64,000 bases of DNA from Corynebacterium hansenii (GTDB lineage: Bacteria > Actinomycetota > Actinomycetes > Mycobacteriales > Mycobacteriaceae): positions 682,001-746,000 of the forward strand of contig NZ_CP047211.1 in assembly GCF_030408795.1 (NCBI RefSeq), written 5' to 3'. This document shows, piece after piece, positions 2,850-9,826 of the stretch. The notes under the pieces were generated by a model. That model was not told the origin of the DNA. It worked only from the letters and a program-made list of their open reading frames with translations, and made no database searches. The translations under genes were made by a program, and so were the position numbers. Numbering within the stretch: the stretch's first letter is position 1; each line of letters begins with the position of its first letter.

Positions 2850-4430
2850 TCAGGCGCGGGCCGCTTCCATCGCCTTGAGGTCCTTGCGCAGGATCTTGCC
2901 CGTCGCGGACTTCGGGATGGCCTCGAGGAACTCCACGGCGCGGACCTTCTTGTACGGGGCGACGCGCTGCTCCACGAACTCGATGACGTCGTCGGCGGTC
3001 AGGCCGGAGTCCGGCTGCGGGACGACGTAGGCCTTGGGGATCTCCTCGCCGTCGCGGCCGATGATGCCCGAGCACGCGGCGTCGGCGATGGCCGGGTGCT
3101 CCAGCAGGACGGCTTCCAGCTCGGCCGGCGCGACCTGGTAGCCCTTGTACTTGATCAGCTCCTTGAGCCTGTCGACGATGAAGACGTCGCCGTTGGCGTC
3201 GATTTCCGCCATGTCGCCGGTGCGCAGCCAGCCGTCGACGATGGTTTCGGCGGTGGCCTCCTCGTTGTTGAGGTAGCCGAGCATGACCTGGGGGCCGCGG
3301 ACCCAGAGTTCGCCGGACCGCGAACGGCCTTCGGCGGGCCGGGGGATCTCGGGGAGGTCGTCGTCGGCGACGTCGACGATCTTGAACTCCGTGTTGCACA
3401 CCGCCGGGCCGATGGAATCCAGCGGCGAATCGTGGCCGACCCGCAGGTGAGACACCGGCGACATCTCGGTCATGCCGTAGCCCTGCGCCATGACGCAGCC
3501 GAGGCGCTTTTCCACCTGCGCGGCCAGATCGGCCTGGAGCGACGCGGCGCCGGAGAGCATGGTCCGCAGCGAGGAGGTGTCGTAGGCGTCGACGGCGGGG
3601 TGCTTGGCCAGGCCGACGGCGATCGGCGGGGCGATGAACGCGAAGGTCGCCTTGTGGTCCTGGATGAGTTCCAGGAAGTCGCCGAGGTCGAACTTCGCCA
3701 TCGTGTATTGGGTGGCGCGCAGGCGCAGCAGCAGGTTGAGCAGCGCGTTCATGCCGTAGATGTGGAAGAACGGCAGCGGCGTGATGGCGACGGTGTCGGA
3801 GCCGAGGATCGACGGCGTCAGGTCGACGACCTGCGCCATGTTGGCAACGAGGTTCGTGTGCGAGAGCATGACGCCCTTGGGCACGCCGGTGGTGCCGGAG
3901 GAGAACGGGATCACCGCGACGTCGCGCGACGGGTCGATGTCCTGTTCGGGGGCGGCGTGGCCCTCGGCGATCAGTTCGGCGATGCCGTGGACGCCGGTCA
4001 GTCCGATCACCTGGTCCTCGGAGAAGCCGGCGTTCTCGGCACCGTGGGTGCCGGCCCAGCCGATGGCGGAGGTGGTCAGGATCATCTTCGCCCCCGACGC
4101 CTTGAGCTGCTTGGCGACGTCTTCCGCGGTGGCGAGCGTGGCCACCGTCGTGACCGTCGCGTTGGCGCGGAGGATGCCGTGGAACGCCACGGCGAAGGTG
4201 GTGGAGTTCGGGCAGTGCAGGGCCACGACGTCCCCCTTGCCGATCCCGCGGTGGGCGAGCGCGCCGGCGAAGGCCTCGATCATCGACTTCAGCTCGGAGT
4301 ACGTGGTGGCCGCGCCGGAGTCGACGATGGCGGGCTTGTCGGCGAATTCGGGGGCGATGTCGCCGAAAATGTAATCGAAGATAGATTCGTCGGGGATGAT
4401 GACGTCGGGGTTCGGGCTGCTCTGCGGCAT
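2850..4430 (-). CDS. Acyl-CoA synthetase (4-coumarate-CoA ligase / FadD type)
   Basis: 526-residue member of the ANL superfamily, which adenylates a carboxylic acid with ATP and transfers it to CoA. Visible motifs in order are the P-loop SSGTTGVPKG (177-186), the A5 motif GYGMTEMSP, the A7/A8 hinge region GWLRTGDMAEID and VDRLKELIKYKGYQV, and the C-terminal catalytic lysine in KSATGKILRK. Length and motif order match the 4CL-like subgroup that activates aryl or short/medium acyl acids. A good ribosome site (GGAGGAA) precedes the ATG. It diverges from the tetR gene across a 198-bp region with an operator-like palindrome at 4521-4536. With the SDR, acyl-CoA dehydrogenase and kinase on the other side it could fill the LvaE (acyl-CoA ligase) role of the levulinate pathway. 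Substrate is not determinable from sequence. Confidence 0.88.
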   Translation of the reverse strand: MPQSSPNPDVIIPDESIFDYIFGDIAPEFADKPAIVDSGAATTYSELKSMIEAFAGALAHRGIGKGDVVALHCPNSTTFAVAFHGILRANATVTTVATLATAEDVAKQLKASGAKMILTTSAIGWAGTHGAENAGFSEDQVIGLTGVHGIAELIAEGHAAPEQDIDPSRDVAVIPFSSGTTGVPKGVMLSHTNLVANMAQVVDLTPSILGSDTVAITPLPFFHIYGMNALLNLLLRLRATQYTMAKFDLGDFLELIQDHKATFAFIAPPIAVGLAKHPAVDAYDTSSLRTMLSGAASLQADLAAQVEKRLGCVMAQGYGMTEMSPVSHLRVGHDSPLDSIGPAVCNTEFKIVDVADDDLPEIPRPAEGRSRSGELWVRGPQVMLGYLNNEEATAETIVDGWLRTGDMAEIDANGDVFIVDRLKELIKYKGYQVAPAELEAVLLEHPAIADAACSGIIGRDGEEIPKAYVVPQPDSGLTADDVIEFVEQRVAPYKKVRAVEFLEAIPKSATGKILRKDLKAMEAARA

Positions 4431-4520
4431 TGTTCCTCCGTGTGGGCTCTGGTTGCGGCGTGGGCCGCGGGCGCGGACGATGTGTGATGGGTCACAATCG
4501 TCCTTGTCGGGCGATCGTAA

Positions 4521-4536
4521 CTGAACCCCGATTCAG
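4521..4536. promoter_or_regulatory. Operator-like palindrome, copy 1, between acyl-CoA synthetase and tetR genes
   Basis: CTGAACCCCGATTCAG is a near-perfect inverted repeat (arms CTGAAC/ATTCAG) in the divergent promoter region. It matches the palindrome at 5275-5290 at 12 of 16 positions. A TetR-family regulator is encoded between the two sites, so this is most likely its binding site. Confidence 0.6.
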
Positions 4537-4628
4537 GAACCAGGTTTTCGACCGGGAACGTGGCGGCGGGACGACGGCGGTACGGCGCCGGTACGGACGG
4601 TGGCAGTGCGGTGGTGAAAGGAGAGGCG

Positions 4629-5273
4629 ATGGCGAAGGCCGATGAGCGGCGGGCGACGATCCTCGCCGCCGCGCGGACGGTGTTCGTGCGCGACGGTTAT
4701 CCCGGCGCGAAGCTGACGGTCGTGGCCGAAGAGGCCGGCTGTTCCGTCGGCACGCTGTACACGTATTTCCGCGACCGCGACGACCTGCTCGAGGCGGTCC
4801 TGCGCGGGGCCGAGGAGGAGATGCGCCACGCCCGCGCCATCCGGCGGGGAAATGGCGGAGGGGGCACGCCGGCCGAGCGGATCGCCGTGGCCAACCGCGC
4901 GTACTTGGAGGCCTACCGCCGCAATGCGCGGGTCATGGCGCTGCTGGAGCAGGTGTCGCAGGTGCATCCGGGTTTCCGGGAGCTGCGCGTGCGGCGGGCC
5001 CGCGACTTCGTCGCCCGCAATGCGCGCGCGCTGGACGTGCTTCGCGACGACGGCGCAATCGACGCCGACGTGGACGTGCCGATGATGGCCGCGGCGCTGT
5101 CGGCGATGGTCTCGCGCCTCTCCTATGCGGCGTGGGTGAACGGTTCGTACCCCGACGACGATGAAACCCTCGAGCGGATCCTGGCCACGGTCAACCGCGT
5201 CTGGTGGGCGTCGCTCGGGCTCGAGGCGCCGGAGGGCGGGGACGTGGGCGTCGAAAAGCAGCCGAAACCGTGA
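4629..5273 (+). CDS. TetR-family transcriptional regulator of the acyl-CoA locus
   Basis: 214 residues. The N-terminal helix-turn-helix is clear (ATILAAARTVFVRDGY, then AEEAGCSVGTLYTYFRDRDD, roughly residues 10-55), followed by an all-helical ligand-binding domain ending in a WVNGSYPDDDETLERI helix pair. The ATG at 4629 is chosen because GAAAGGAG precedes it; an upstream in-frame ATG at 4560 lacks such a site and would add a low-complexity Arg/Gly tail. The gene sits between two matching 16-bp palindromes (4521-4536 and 5275-5290), diverges from the acyl-CoA synthetase and runs towards the SDR-dehydrogenase-kinase genes. It probably represses both arms and is relieved by an acyl-CoA or acid intermediate; the ligand is inference. 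Confidence 0.88.
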   Translation: MAKADERRATILAAARTVFVRDGYPGAKLTVVAEEAGCSVGTLYTYFRDRDDLLEAVLRGAEEEMRHARAIRRGNGGGGTPAERIAVANRAYLEAYRRNARVMALLEQVSQVHPGFRELRVRRARDFVARNARALDVLRDDGAIDADVDVPMMAAALSAMVSRLSYAAWVNGSYPDDDETLERILATVNRVWWASLGLEAPEGGDVGVEKQPKP

Positions 5274-5274
5274 T

Positions 5275-5290
5275 TTGAATCACGATTCAA
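5275..5290. promoter_or_regulatory. Operator-like palindrome, copy 2, upstream of the SDR operon
   Basis: TTGAATCACGATTCAA has perfect 6-bp arms (TTGAAT/ATTCAA) around CACG. It starts two bases after the tetR stop and lies 57 nt before the SDR start, a good place to control the SDR operon. It shares yTGAAyCmCGATTCAr with the site at 4521-4536. Confidence 0.65.
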
Positions 5291-5346
5291 CTTAGGCTGT
5301 CGTCCGAAGGCACCCACCCGGGGCGCGCCGAGGAAAGGACACGGCA

Positions 5347-6117
5347 ATGGTCACCCACGATTTCAAGGGGAAGGTGGCGCTGGTCACCGGCGGTACGCGG
5401 GGTATCGGCAACGCCACCGCGCGAATGCTTGCCGAGGCGGGCGCGAAGGTGGCCATCACCTCGCGCAAGGCCGACGCAGCCGAAGCGGCCGCGGCCGATC
5501 TCGCCCGCGCCACGGGCGGCACCGTCATCGGGCTCGCCGCCCATGCGGGGGAGCCCGGCGCCGCGGACGACGCGTGCGCGCGGGTGCGGTCGGAACTCGG
5601 GGGAATCGACGTGCTGGTCAACAACGCCGGCACAAACCCCGCCTACGGCCCCGTCATCGAGCAGGAGCGCTCGGCGCTGGAGAAGACGTTCGCCATCAAC
5701 GCGCTGGCGCCCATGAACTGGATCCGAGCCGCCGTCGCGCACGGCCTCGGCGAAAGGCCCGGCGCGGCGGTGGTCAACGTCGCGTCCATCGGCGCGTGGA
5801 CCGTGGAGGACGGGCTCGGCGCCTACAACGCATCCAAAGCAGCGCTGCTGCACGTGACCAGGCAACTCTCCCGCGAACTGGGGCCCGCCGTCCGCGTCAA
5901 TTCCGTGTCTCCGGGCGTGGTGCGCACCAAACTCGCCGAGGCGCTGTGGCGCGAGCATGAGGCCGCCGTCGCCGGCATGACCCCGCTGGGCCGCATCGGC
6001 GAGCCCGACGACGTCGCCGACGTCATCTGCTTCCTCGCCGGCGACGGCGCCCGGTGGATGACGGGCTCGGACATCGTGGTCGACGGCGGCCAACTCGTCG
6101 GCACAGCGTTGATGTAG
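5347..6117 (+). CDS. Short-chain dehydrogenase/reductase (SDR)
   Basis: 256-residue classical SDR, an NAD(P)-dependent oxidoreductase. The nucleotide-binding motif TGGTRGIG is at 14-21, the structural NNAG motif follows, and the catalytic triad is readable as Ser147, Tyr160 and Lys164 (YNASK). The C-terminal DGGQLVGTALM tail is typical of 3-oxoacyl reductase or hydroxyacyl dehydrogenase-like members. It is the first gene of a tight operon: the acyl-CoA dehydrogenase starts 8 nt after its stop and the kinase overlaps that gene. AAAGGA lies a few bases before the ATG. In this company a role like LvaD, reducing a 4-oxoacyl-CoA to the 4-hydroxyacyl-CoA, is plausible. A fatty-acid or alcohol substrate cannot be excluded. 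Confidence 0.87.
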   Translation: MVTHDFKGKVALVTGGTRGIGNATARMLAEAGAKVAITSRKADAAEAAAADLARATGGTVIGLAAHAGEPGAADDACARVRSELGGIDVLVNNAGTNPAYGPVIEQERSALEKTFAINALAPMNWIRAAVAHGLGERPGAAVVNVASIGAWTVEDGLGAYNASKAALLHVTRQLSRELGPAVRVNSVSPGVVRTKLAEALWREHEAAVAGMTPLGRIGEPDDVADVICFLAGDGARWMTGSDIVVDGGQLVGTALM

Positions 6118-6125
6118 GACGGACG

Positions 6126-7385
6126 ATGGACTTCCGCGAAACCGACCGCGCCCGCGAGTACCGTCGCCGCCTCGAGGCGTTCATGGACGAGTGCGTGTAC
6201 CCCGCCGAGGCGACGATCGCCGAGCAGGTGCGCGCCTCCGGCGACCCGCACCACCACCCGGCGGCGATGGAAGAGCTCAAGGCCGAGGCGAAGGCCCGCG
6301 GCCTGTGGAACCTCTTCCACCCGCACCCCGGCCGCGGGCCGGGCCTGACCAACGCCGAATACGCGCCGCTGGCCGAGATCATGGGCCGCAGCCCCCACAT
6401 CGCCCCGGAGGCCTGCAACTGCAGCGCCCCCGACACCGGCAACATGGAGATCCTTGAGCTCTACGGAACCGAGGAGCACCGCCGCCGCTGGTTGGAGCCG
6501 CTGCTGGAGGGCAAGATCCGTTCGGCGTTCTGCATGACCGAACCCGGCGTGGCCTCGTCGGACGCCACCAACGTGGCCATGCGCATGGACCGCGTCGACG
6601 GTGGATTTCGCCTGAACGGCCGCAAGTGGTTCACCTCCAACGGCATGCACCCGAACCTGCGGGTGCTCATAGTCATGGGCAAGACTTCCCCGGACGTGGA
6701 GCCGCACCGGCAGCAGTCGATGCTGGTCGTGCCCGCCGACGCGCCGGGCGTGACCGTGGTTCGGGACCTGCCGGTCTTTGGGTTCCACGACCGCGAGGGG
6801 CACGCGGAGGTGCTTTTCGACGACGTGTTCGTCCCGGATTCCGACGTGCTCGGCGAAGAGGGCGGCGGATTCCGCATCGCGCAGGACCGGCTCGGCCCGG
6901 GGCGCATCCACCACTGCATGCGGGCGATCGGCATGGCCGAGCGGGCGCTGGAGCTGACGTGCCGCCGCGCGTTGGAGCGGTCGACCTTCGGTGTTCGTCT
7001 GGCCGAACGCGACAACGTTCGCGACCGCATCGCCCGGGCCCGCATCGACATCGAGATGGTGCGGCTGCTGACGCTGAAGACGGCGTGGCTCATGGACGAG
7101 GCCGGAAACAAGGCGGCGCGACAGGAGATCGCCGCGATCAAGGTCGCCGCCCCGAACGCCGCGCTGCGCATCGTCGACGAGGCGATCCAGCTCCACGGCG
7201 GCGAAGGCGTCACCGACGATCTGCCGCTGGCGCACTTCTGGGCGGGGCTGCGCGCACTTCGCCTGGCCGACGGGCCGGATGAGGTGCACCTGATGACCAT
7301 CGCGCGCGGCGAACTCCGCCGATACCGTGGAGGGGGAAGCCACCGCGCGGCGGAGGCGGCAACGGAGAAAGGCGAGAATCGATGA
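6126..7385 (+). CDS. Acyl-CoA dehydrogenase of the ACAD10/ACAD11 type
   Basis: 419-residue FAD flavoprotein. It carries the signature that separates ACAD10/11-type enzymes from ordinary acyl-CoA dehydrogenases: NCSAPDTGNM (from residue 98), MTEPGVASSDATN (from 137) and HGGEGVTDDLPLAHFW (from 357). In mammals and Pseudomonas putida (LvaC) such enzymes act with an APH-type kinase to remove a 4-hydroxyl group: the kinase phosphorylates the 4-hydroxyacyl-CoA and the dehydrogenase-fold protein converts the phosphorylated acyl-CoA to an enoyl-CoA. The start at ATG 6126 gives the usual MDFxxTxxxxxxRxRLxxFM beginning. The following kinase gene overlaps the stop by 4 nt. Function in this pathway is inferred from family and neighbourhood. 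Confidence 0.88.
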   Translation: MDFRETDRAREYRRRLEAFMDECVYPAEATIAEQVRASGDPHHHPAAMEELKAEAKARGLWNLFHPHPGRGPGLTNAEYAPLAEIMGRSPHIAPEACNCSAPDTGNMEILELYGTEEHRRRWLEPLLEGKIRSAFCMTEPGVASSDATNVAMRMDRVDGGFRLNGRKWFTSNGMHPNLRVLIVMGKTSPDVEPHRQQSMLVVPADAPGVTVVRDLPVFGFHDREGHAEVLFDDVFVPDSDVLGEEGGGFRIAQDRLGPGRIHHCMRAIGMAERALELTCRRALERSTFGVRLAERDNVRDRIARARIDIEMVRLLTLKTAWLMDEAGNKAARQEIAAIKVAAPNAALRIVDEAIQLHGGEGVTDDLPLAHFWAGLRALRLADGPDEVHLMTIARGELRRYRGGGSHRAAEAATEKGENR

Positions 7386-8437
7386 ACGCGGGAACCGGAA
7401 CGAACCACGACGGCGACGTCACCCCCTTCGACGAGGCCCGGCTGGCCGAGTGGCTGGACACCTTGCCCGGCGCGACCCGCGGACCCGTCCGGCTGGAGCG
7501 CCTCGGTGCGGGGCAATCGAATCTGACCTACCTGGCGCGCGATGCGGAGGGGCACGTGGTCGTCGTCAGGCGGCCCCCGATGGGCTCCCTGGCATCGTCG
7601 GCCCATGACGTCGCCCGGGAGGGGCGCATCATGGCGGCGCTCGCCGGCACCGGCGTCCCCGTGCCCGCGATCCTGGGCGTGCGCTCCGAACCGGACGTCG
7701 CCGAAGTGCCCGTCGTTGCGATGGAGCTGGTCGACGGCACCGCGGTAACGTCGCCGGCCATCGCCGAGGAGATGCCGGCGGCGGCCCGCCGAGCGGTCGG
7801 GGAGGGGCTCGTCGACGCGATGGCCGCCATCCACGCCGTCGACCTGGCCGAGGTGGGGCTGGACGGGCTGGCGTCGCACGACCCCTACGCGCCGCGGCAG
7901 CTGCGGCGGTGGTCGGGGCAGTGGGAGAAGACGCGGACGCGGGATTCGGCCGCGCTCGACGACCTGACCCGGCGGCTGTGGGACGGCGTGCCCGAGCAGG
8001 ACGCGACCGTCCTCGTCCACGGCGACCTCCACCTGGGCAACGTCATGTGCGATCCGGAAACCGGTGAAATCAAGGCCGTCGTCGACTGGGAGCTGGCGAC
8101 GCTCGGCGATCCGCTGGCCGACGTCGGCATGCTGCTGGCCTACTGGCCCGAACGCGACGGCCTGGTGCTGCCAGGCTTCGCCGCCGCCCTGGAGGAGGGG
8201 TTCCCCACCGGCGACGAACTCGCCGACCGCTACCTGGCGGCGACGGGCCGCGATCGCGCCGCCCTGGAGTACTGGCGGGTGCTGGGCCTATGGAAGGTCG
8301 CGATCATCGCCGAGGGCGTGGTCCGCCGCGTCCGCGACATGCCCGCCAACGAAGCCCCCACCGGCGCCCCGACCGCCGAGATGGTCGACGGGCTGATCGC
8401 CTACGCCGGCGCCGCCGCCGACCGCGCGGGGTTGTAG
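7382..8437 (+). CDS. APH-family phosphotransferase (ACAD10/11 N-terminal kinase / LvaA type)
   Basis: 351 residues with the aminoglycoside phosphotransferase fold. RLGAGQSNLTYLARD forms the nucleotide loop, the Lys/Arg-rich VVVRRPPMGSLASSAHDVAR segment matches ACAD10/11-type kinases, the catalytic Brenner motif is HGDLHLGNVM (from residue 213) and the Mg-binding motif is VVDWELATLGDPLADVG (Asp at 235). In human ACAD10/11 this domain is fused to the acyl-CoA dehydrogenase; here the two are separate, translationally coupled genes (ATGA overlap at 7382-7385). The expected substrate is a 4-hydroxyacyl-CoA rather than an antibiotic. No LvaB-like small partner is visible, which differs from the P. 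putida operon. Confidence 0.86.
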   Translation: MNAGTGTNHDGDVTPFDEARLAEWLDTLPGATRGPVRLERLGAGQSNLTYLARDAEGHVVVVRRPPMGSLASSAHDVAREGRIMAALAGTGVPVPAILGVRSEPDVAEVPVVAMELVDGTAVTSPAIAEEMPAAARRAVGEGLVDAMAAIHAVDLAEVGLDGLASHDPYAPRQLRRWSGQWEKTRTRDSAALDDLTRRLWDGVPEQDATVLVHGDLHLGNVMCDPETGEIKAVVDWELATLGDPLADVGMLLAYWPERDGLVLPGFAAALEEGFPTGDELADRYLAATGRDRAALEYWRVLGLWKVAIIAEGVVRRVRDMPANEAPTGAPTAEMVDGLIAYAGAAADRAGL

Positions 8438-8454
8438 GGGGCGAGCCGGGAAAC

Positions 8455-8504
8455 GGGGAAAACCCCGCCGCCGGAGGGGTGCCGGTGATAGCTTTCACCT
8501 CCGG
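8455..8504 (+). terminator. Possible terminator region after the kinase gene
   Basis: GGGGAAAACCCC (8455-8466) is followed by a 7-bp stem CCGGAGG (8471-8477) with CCTCCGG (8498-8504). No T-run follows, so this is weak evidence for separation from the MFS gene. Confidence 0.3.
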
Positions 8505-8599
8505 AAGCAGTCCGGCATCATCGGCCCGAAAGGCGAAGCGACCATGCCCACCCACCACCGCGGTCATGGCAGCGCGGCACATCCCCGAAAGGCTGACCG

Positions 8600-9826
8600 G
8601 TGACCGACCGCCGTCGTATCGGCGGGGACATCTGGGCCCTGTCCATCGCCACGTTCATCAACCGCGCCACCGGGTTCCTCACGCTTTTCGCCGCCATCTT
8701 CTTCACCGGGACCGGCATGTCCCCCGAGACTGTGGTCCTCTCATTGTCGGTGTTGGGCGTCGCCGGCGTGTCCGGTTCGCTGCTGGGCGGACGGCTCGCC
8801 GACAGGTTCGGCAAGACCGCGGTGCTGGTGGCCAGTTCCCTGGTCAACGCCGGTCTGTTCGCGGTACTCGCCATCATCGACCATTCCCTGACCTTATGGG
8901 TCGTGGGCATCGCGGCCATGAGCGCGTTGGCGTCGCAAGTCTTCTATGGCCCGTCGATGGCGGTGGTGGCGGAGTCGTCCGAGGGGCGGGACCGCGTCAC
9001 CAGGTTCGCTTTCTACCGGATCTTCATCAACGTGGGCGCCATCGTCGCCCCGGCGCTCGTCGGCTTTCTGGGGAGGGACCGGTTCGACATGCTCTTCTGG
9101 TTCTCCGCGATCGGCTCGGTGTTGGTGCCGGTGATCCTGCTCGCGGGGATCCGGTCGCGGCGCACGGACACCGACGGGGGCGAATCTACGGAGGCCGCTG
9201 CCGGGCACGGCGACGGCGAGCCCTCCGCGCCCACCCCGCGACTGCGCGCGGCGCTTTTACTCGTTTACGTGGCCATGGGCTTGGCCATGGTGGTGTACGC
9301 GCAGCACCAGAGCGCGGTGCCGCTGCGCCTGGAGTCCGAGCCGAATGGCGTGCGGCTCTACGCCCTGCTGCTGATCATCAATCCGGTGTTCGTCATCGCC
9401 GTCGAGTACCCGCTGAGCCACTTCACCAAACGCATGCCCGCGAGCATCGCGCTCGCCGTCGGGACCACCATCATGGGCGCCGGTGTCGCCATGGCGGTGG
9501 GTTTCGCCGAGGTGCCCGCGCTCGTCATCGTCGGGTGGCTGCTGTTCTCGCTGGGCGAGTGCATCTTCGCGCCCATGTCCAACACCTACGTCGCCGAGCT
9601 GTCCCCGAAGGCCGCGCAGTCCCGATCCCAGGGGCGCCTGGCCGCATTCCAGGCGGTGGGTATCGCGATGGGCCCGGGGCTCGGCAGCTGGATGCTCCTC
9701 GTCCTCGGCGGTGCCGCGTGGAGCGGCTTCCTGGCCATGACCGTCGTCTGCGCCGGACTCGTCCTCGCCGCGCATGCGGCATATGCCGGCGCGAAAAAGA
9801 ATCTCAATCCGGGCATCGCCCACTGA
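8600..9826 (+). CDS. MFS transporter
   Basis: 408 residues with about 12 hydrophobic helices. The loop 2-3 motif GGRLADRFGKTAVLV (motif A-like, GxxxDRxGR) identifies the major facilitator superfamily. A polar central loop (about residues 195-215, SRRTDTDGGESTEA and following) separates the two six-helix halves. The GTG at 8600 has no strong ribosome site, and 162 bp separate it from the kinase gene, so it may be transcribed on its own. Position next to the acyl-CoA genes suggests uptake of the acid substrate or export of a product, but the fold is also common in drug exporters. It converges with dinG across a strong hairpin. Confidence 0.82.
   Translation: MTDRRRIGGDIWALSIATFINRATGFLTLFAAIFFTGTGMSPETVVLSLSVLGVAGVSGSLLGGRLADRFGKTAVLVASSLVNAGLFAVLAIIDHSLTLWVVGIAAMSALASQVFYGPSMAVVAESSEGRDRVTRFAFYRIFINVGAIVAPALVGFLGRDRFDMLFWFSAIGSVLVPVILLAGIRSRRTDTDGGESTEAAAGHGDGEPSAPTPRLRAALLLVYVAMGLAMVVYAQHQSAVPLRLESEPNGVRLYALLLIINPVFVIAVEYPLSHFTKRMPASIALAVGTTIMGAGVAMAVGFAEVPALVIVGWLLFSLGECIFAPMSNTYVAELSPKAAQSRSQGRLAAFQAVGIAMGPGLGSWMLLVLGGAAWSGFLAMTVVCAGLVLAAHAAYAGAKKNLNPGIAH

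Follow-up and report, generated by a model that had tools for sequence, protein, structure and literature searches.

A putative TetR-controlled gene cassette for 4-oxo and 4-hydroxy acid catabolism in Corynebacterium hansenii

Does a cluster of six genes in Corynebacterium hansenii encode a pathway for acids that carry an oxygen function at carbon 4? The cluster lies at positions 2850-9826 of a 64,000-nucleotide stretch (contig NZ_CP047211.1; G000:C1:682001-746000), hereafter the window, within a genome of 3.1 Mb. An initial annotation had grouped here an acyl-coenzyme A (CoA) ligase, a TetR-family regulator, a short-chain dehydrogenase/reductase (SDR), an acyl-CoA dehydrogenase (ACAD), an APH-type kinase and an MFS transporter, and had read the kinase and the ACAD as an ACAD10/11-type pair for 4-hydroxyacyl-CoA. 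A check of open reading frames (ORFs) confirmed all six genes where they had been placed, each with the corresponding Pfam domains. The proposed role of the pair is supported by structure-search scores, active-site residues and the ACAD tree. With a probability of roughly 0.8, we consider the cluster to be a catabolic cassette, complete in itself, for carboxylic acids with a 4-oxo and/or 4-hydroxy group, which would act by ACAD10/11-like phosphorylation followed by elimination. The protein families, key residues, operon structure, conservation and operator-like sites are established here. The features of the cluster are the following.

2850..4430, minus strand: acyl-CoA ligase (ACS), AMP-binding; Pfam AMP-binding and C domain.
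4521..4536, strand not assigned: operator-like palindrome CTGAACCCCGATTCAG, in the gap that separates the divergently oriented ligase and TetR genes; equivalents stand before ACS or TetR in related loci.
4629..5273, plus strand: TetR-family regulator; Pfam TetR_N; start assumed at ATG 4629, GTG 4560 also possible.
5275..5290, strand not assigned: operator-like perfect palindrome TTGAATCACGATTCAA, in the gap between TetR and SDR, the SDR start being 56 bp further on.
5347..6117, plus strand: SDR oxidoreductase; Pfam adh_short; putative LvaD-like role between 4-oxoacyl-CoA and 4-hydroxyacyl-CoA.
6126..7385, plus strand: ACAD10/11-type acyl-CoA dehydrogenase; Pfam Acyl-CoA_dh N/M/1; R255, H263-C264-M265-R266, D382.
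7382..8437, plus strand: APH-fold kinase, putatively a 4-hydroxyacyl-CoA kinase; Pfam APH; D215, N220, DWE 235-237, R172, R79-E80.
8600..9826, plus strand: MFS transporter; Pfam MFS_1; adjoins the cassette, outside the conserved unit.

The SDR and ACAD genes are separated by 8 bp, and the ACAD and kinase genes overlap by 4 bp (ATGA, 7382-7385). The kinase and the dehydrogenase are separate genes, as had been described, and not fused as in mammals. The remaining gaps between the cluster genes measure 198, 73 and 162 bp. A promoter and terminator scan of the locus yielded nothing above chance.

By sequence, the window ACAD is assigned to the ACAD10/11 type. Its top four matches among solved structures are the ACAD11 entries 8v3u (2.1e-124), 8v3v and 2wbi together with 4hr3 (1.1e-122), the range being 5e-116 to 2e-124; the best ordinary ACAD comes next after this group, at 2.5e-40. 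The 4hr3 protein, which we take to be a mycobacterial ACAD, is a close relative but has HAMR where the window protein has HCMR. Alignment and residue mapping place R255, HCMR 263-266 and D382 onto R626, HCMR 634-637 and D753 of mouse ACAD11. The catalytic Asp (D382) replaces Glu, and this Arg/HCMR/Asp set comprises the residues that ACAD11 needs.

The signature is widely kept among relatives. RHCMRD was found in 21 of the 23 genus loci (L054 reads RHAMRD and L058 is truncated) and in 28 of the 29 loci that scored best in the order, to which the order counts refer, the remaining one reading RHAMRD. These figures come from a repeated survey that covered all 23 and 29 loci; the first had taken only matches of at least 250 residues without a stop (19/23 and 23/29). 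A contig scan with the Azoarcus ACAD as query retained the 80 best of 360 loci, which come almost entirely from Burkholderiales or other β-proteobacteria, none being titled Pseudomonas; all 80 rows that passed the length filter read RHCMRD, but at 76% identity or more to the query they are close kin and not independent. None of five further ACADs surveyed in the same genome as the window has the ACAD10/11 signature (seven matches were found, the two weakest being too short for this survey).

In the ACAD tree of 62 rows, a clade of 39 rows (100/99) unites the window protein with ACAD11, 4hr3 and every included Azoarcus-query ACAD except one; the five ordinary ACADs from the same genome that were included fall outside. 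The nearest sister, from L036, is absent from this tree because its aligned stretch held a stop. Both this tree and the kinase tree of 70 rows sampled part of the loci, and both gave long-branch warnings. The expected separation from ordinary acyl-CoA dehydrogenases is borne out by E-values, residues and tree position alike, and an ordinary ACAD was rejected as a candidate on the same grounds.

The kinase has its best solved matches in 9o56 (7.7e-45), 3dxp (9e-41) and ACAD11 (1.3e-33). Its residues D215, N220, R172 and R79-E80 correspond to D220, N225, R176 and the Arg-Glu pair of mouse ACAD11, and none of these residues is missing in the window or in 22 of the 23 genus loci, the remaining one being truncated. 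The kinase tree, drawn from the midpoint, is divided by a 100/100 split. One side holds the window kinase, ACAD11, 3dxp, 9o56, the kinases of Burkholderiales and a second kinase from the same genome as the window; the other holds a Sulfitobacter kinase and 20 kinases whose genes adjoin DUF6285. Within the ACAD11 side, the window kinase is a member of a distinct actinobacterial branch (23 rows, 100/100).

How could these proteins work together? In the published route (PMC12440821, PMC11342911, PMC6692424, PMC9399607), an acid is converted to acyl-CoA, an SDR reduces the 4-oxo to the 4-hydroxy form, a kinase phosphorylates position 4, and an ACAD eliminates the phosphate to give a 2-enoyl-CoA for β-oxidation. 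By family and residues, we propose that the window ligase would make the CoA thioester of the acid and that the SDR would interconvert the 4-oxo and 4-hydroxy forms, its direction being likewise a prediction. The kinase would add a phosphate to the 4-hydroxyl group of 4-hydroxyacyl-CoA. An FAD-dependent reaction of the ACAD, which has the catalytic Asp and the HCMR pocket, would then remove this phosphate with no net oxidation, yielding 2-enoyl-CoA, and general β-oxidation encoded elsewhere in the genome may complete the breakdown. The genome has strong matches to 3-hydroxyacyl-CoA dehydrogenase domains at 2937517, 936076 and 2234721, and thiolases at 589556, 2935218, 933841 and 2665058. Levulinate, acids derived from γ-lactones and longer 4-hydroxy acids are all open as candidate substrates.

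All 23 genus matches other than the window itself were fetched with their flanks, some stretches ending at contig ends. The SDR (at least 52% identity), ACAD and kinase genes lie on one strand in 20 of these 23 loci; L058 has ACAD and kinase remnants only, and L055-L057 carry other ACAD/kinase pairs. The ligase (at least 55% identity) is found in 18 loci in a divergent, convergent or slightly distant position, that of L036 being cut by a contig end, and a TetR gene is found in 19 (at least 49% identity in 14, 37-38% in five). The window flanks ctaD, serB, the gene at 2049 and dinG have no counterparts in the fetched stretches of 21 loci, that is, all except L036 and L054. The unit is mostly located elsewhere in relatives, which argues for a functional module. 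In L058 (L058:5867-8395, G134) the cassette looks decayed: what is left is the beginning of the ACAD next to the end of the kinase.

The MFS gene seems not to belong to this unit. It has no match in any of the 23 fetched stretches, and in L036, whose ACAD is 88% identical, and in L054 dinG directly follows the kinase gene, with the MFS gene standing between them in the window. The transporter was rejected as a pathway member on these observations, and its earlier inclusion in the pathway was not upheld. The gene at 8600-9826 was either inserted here or lost in L036 and L054; a PHROGs scan named no function for it.

The annotation had also suggested that the pathway may be uncommon in corynebacteria, which agrees with our counts: at E<=1e-80 the ACAD type occurs in 23 of 151 sampled Corynebacterium genomes, the window genome included, and in the order it is close to general, being present in 102 of 121 sampled genomes. 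A second set of ACAD, kinase and SDR genes, diverged from the first, lies at about 2810736-2813806 (L011:7737-10807) in the window genome. Its ACAD and kinase are 37% and 38% identical to those of the window; the ACAD reads RHVMRD and falls outside the 39-row clade but inside the next clade of 45 rows (100/97), and the kinase residues are complete. The 19 kb surrounding this second set contain no ligase or TetR of the window type and no palindrome.

The palindrome TTGAATCnnGATTCAA precedes both the ligase/TetR pair and the SDR gene. Searched as YTGAAYCNNGATTCAR with at most one mismatch in the 3.1-Mb genome, it occurs at the two cassette sites and at 1618454, a one-mismatch site inside an ORF; this near confinement to the cassette suggests a dedicated regulon. 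The 23 relatives contain 22 sites with at most two mismatches to YTGAATCNNGATTCAR, all of them close to and upstream of SDR, ligase or TetR genes. A first-order model predicts about 7 such sites per million bases, so that about 2 would be expected anywhere in these 0.3 million bases. The site precedes the SDR gene in 12 of the 14 loci whose TetR is at least 49% identical to that of the window, and in none of the nine other loci (five have a TetR of 37-38% identity, and in four no TetR was found). Because the window and L036 served to define the pattern, 11 of 13 is the independent count.

There is good evidence from these predicted sites that TetR would control the ligase gene and the SDR-ACAD-kinase operon. 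We infer that it represses these and its own gene through the two palindromes and that the pathway acid or its acyl-CoA would release it. L042 and L045-L048 keep the enzymes with a different TetR (37-38%) and no palindrome at two mismatches or fewer; in these loci the switch may have been exchanged.

Several observations weigh against a cassette for 4-oxo and 4-hydroxy acids in the simple form given above. The window kinase branch is not nested with ACAD11 and the Burkholderiales kinases, and the window kinase shares 32% identity with the Azoarcus kinase from that other branch; its substrate may therefore differ. The ligase and SDR belong to promiscuous families, and their best solved relatives do not point to 4-oxoacyl-CoA. 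The closest solved proteins of the ligase are plant 4-coumarate-CoA ligases (1e-108), a kinship that is no guide to a short-chain substrate, and the best solved relative of the SDR is DHRS4. Both β-oxidation families searched for also match in 14 of 14 control genomes, so that their presence says little, though it is consistent with the proposal. Only 15 of the 29 fetched order loci were found to have a kinase no more than 1.5 kb from the ACAD, and next to the plasmid copy in Rhodococcus koreensis no kinase is annotated. On the regulatory side, L037 (TetR 58%) and L058 (TetR 52%) have three-mismatch sites only, a class of site also seen in L042 of the low-identity group, and L054 retains the enzymes with no TetR match or palindrome. 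Finally, the likeness to the lva operon of Pseudomonas putida was judged by gene content.

Three other explanations have to be weighed. The best of them, unlikely in our judgement but deserving serious attention, is that the kinase and ACAD form a 4-hydroxyacyl-CoA pair for detoxification or recycling of γ-hydroxy fatty acids (such as products of lipid peroxidation) and not for growth on levulinate-like acids, the SDR being an oxidase or acting on some other substrate. Mammalian ACAD10 and ACAD11 serve 4-hydroxy fatty acids (PMC12440821, PMC11342911). This explanation also agrees with the kinship of the ligase to 4-coumarate-CoA ligases, and none of the window's own flanking genes, the only ones looked for, adds a conserved uptake gene to the unit. 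However, a ligase together with a dedicated regulator is better explained by the use of an acid from outside than by housekeeping repair.

Distinctly less probable is that the pair acts on something other than a simple 4-hydroxyacyl-CoA, either with the hydroxyl at another position or with an aryl-substituted acid supplied by the 4-coumarate-CoA-ligase-like enzyme. The separate kinase branch, the nearest relatives of the ligase and the generic nature of the SDR could all be understood in this way, but the ACAD pocket residues of known importance are identical to those of ACAD11.

That a drug or sugar kinase stands by chance beside an ordinary fatty acid dehydrogenase is highly improbable, since the Pfam APH assignment and weak NCBIfam APH(3') scores that might suggest it are outweighed by the scores themselves (41.8 bits for the best aminoglycoside model, APH(3'), against a cut-off of 205; 1e-32 to 1e-45 for 9o56, 3dxp and ACAD11 against 2.4e-7 for a macrolide kinase, the best drug kinase among solved matches) and by the kinase-ACAD pairing kept across the genus loci. 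A drug kinase was rejected on these values; the expectation that the protein does not belong with aminoglycoside kinases was borne out by the scores, on which the contrast with drug kinases rests, and the tree, which has no drug kinase rows, places it in its own branch on the ACAD11 side.

Returning to the cassette for 4-oxo and 4-hydroxy acids, we tentatively suggest a more specific form of it, possible though still short of an even chance: an actinobacterial pathway that is independent of LvaB and switched by TetR, with its own kinase branch, a 4-coumarate-CoA-ligase-like activator and substrates beyond levulinate, such as longer or aryl-substituted 4-oxo or 4-hydroxy acids. If the cassette works as proposed, it would give a model for the ACAD10/11 reaction in Actinobacteria, in which each of the two activities resides on a small protein of its own and the regulator is included. 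The natural substrate could be learned from the TetR ligand, the TetR-palindrome pair could serve as a sensor of 4-oxo or 4-hydroxy acids, and the kinase branch might be what decides the need for a small partner such as LvaB.

That partner was reported to be missing from the cluster, and the intergenic gaps are indeed too short to hold a gene for the 12-kDa protein. P. putida requires LvaB, which binds LvaA, according to PMC6692424; in the same source no lvaB is given for the analysed region of P. citronellolis LA18T, and in PMC11342911 a Burkholderia pseudomallei kinase substitutes for the ACAD10 kinase in vitro with LvaB unmentioned. Relatives free of LvaB have thus been published, so its absence here is not new, and we rejected it as a mark of novelty. 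The suggestion that separate genes and a missing LvaB make a distinct version of the pathway was not sustained either, LvaA and LvaC of P. putida also being separate.

The kinases on the far side of the 100/100 split have a different neighbour. DUF6285, which may be the LvaB family, was not found in the window genome (2 of 14 control genomes were positive) and occurs in 29 of 121 genomes of the order; the literature search found no paper naming it. An APH-type kinase adjoins DUF6285 on the same strand in 20 of 20 fetched order loci (L065-L084, L209-L228), and all 20 kinases are separated from the window kinase by the split. In the stretches of 11-12.5 kb around these loci, 13 of 20 have an ACAD reading FQAASE, with the ordinary catalytic Glu, four have an RH(A/C)MRD ACAD (L224, L225, L226, L228) and three have no ACAD row. 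The FQAASE rows included in the 62-row tree form a clade adjoining the ACAD10/11 type (joined at 100/98); were a kinase to be paired with a dehydrogenase that has Glu as its base, the chemistry would lack an explanation. On a plasmid of Sulfitobacter alexandrii (L062:4812-9176), TRAP transporter genes are followed by a run that encodes a DUF6285-side kinase, a protein of 157 aa with no Pfam match, a ligase and an RHCMRD ACAD; this may represent another type of kinase partner.

The chemistry of ACAD10/11 itself is already known, and the literature matches listed, as judged by titles and the beginnings of abstracts, contained nothing on point for this pathway in Corynebacterium or Actinobacteria. 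Compared with mammalian ACAD11 and ACAD10, the window proteins have the same ACAD Asp, upstream Arg and HCMR, the same catalytic residues of an APH-type kinase and the same pairing of functions. There the two are fused in one protein, whereas here they are encoded by two overlapping genes joined by SDR, ligase and TetR, and the likeness of the kinases is distant (1e-33). The P. putida lva operon (lvaABCDEFG with LvaR), as known from publications, similarly has a ligase, an SDR, a kinase and an ACAD10/11-type ACAD in one cluster. In place of LvaR, which is sigma54-dependent (PMC6692424), the window has TetR with palindromes; its cluster leaves too little space for an LvaB gene, and instead of LvaF and LvaG (a DUF485 protein and an acetate permease) it has only an MFS gene that is not conserved with the unit. 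By its regulator and transporter, the cassette is not an lva operon. The clusters of the Azoarcus plasmid pAZKH and of P. citronellolis LA18T, the latter described in PMC6692424, share with the window separate kinase, SDR and ACAD genes. Both also carry a histidine phosphatase gene, which the window cluster lacks; in pAZKH (L060:5453-9248) this gene is followed by kinase, SDR and ACAD. The Azoarcus kinase belongs to a different branch, and the gene order in the window is SDR-ACAD-kinase.

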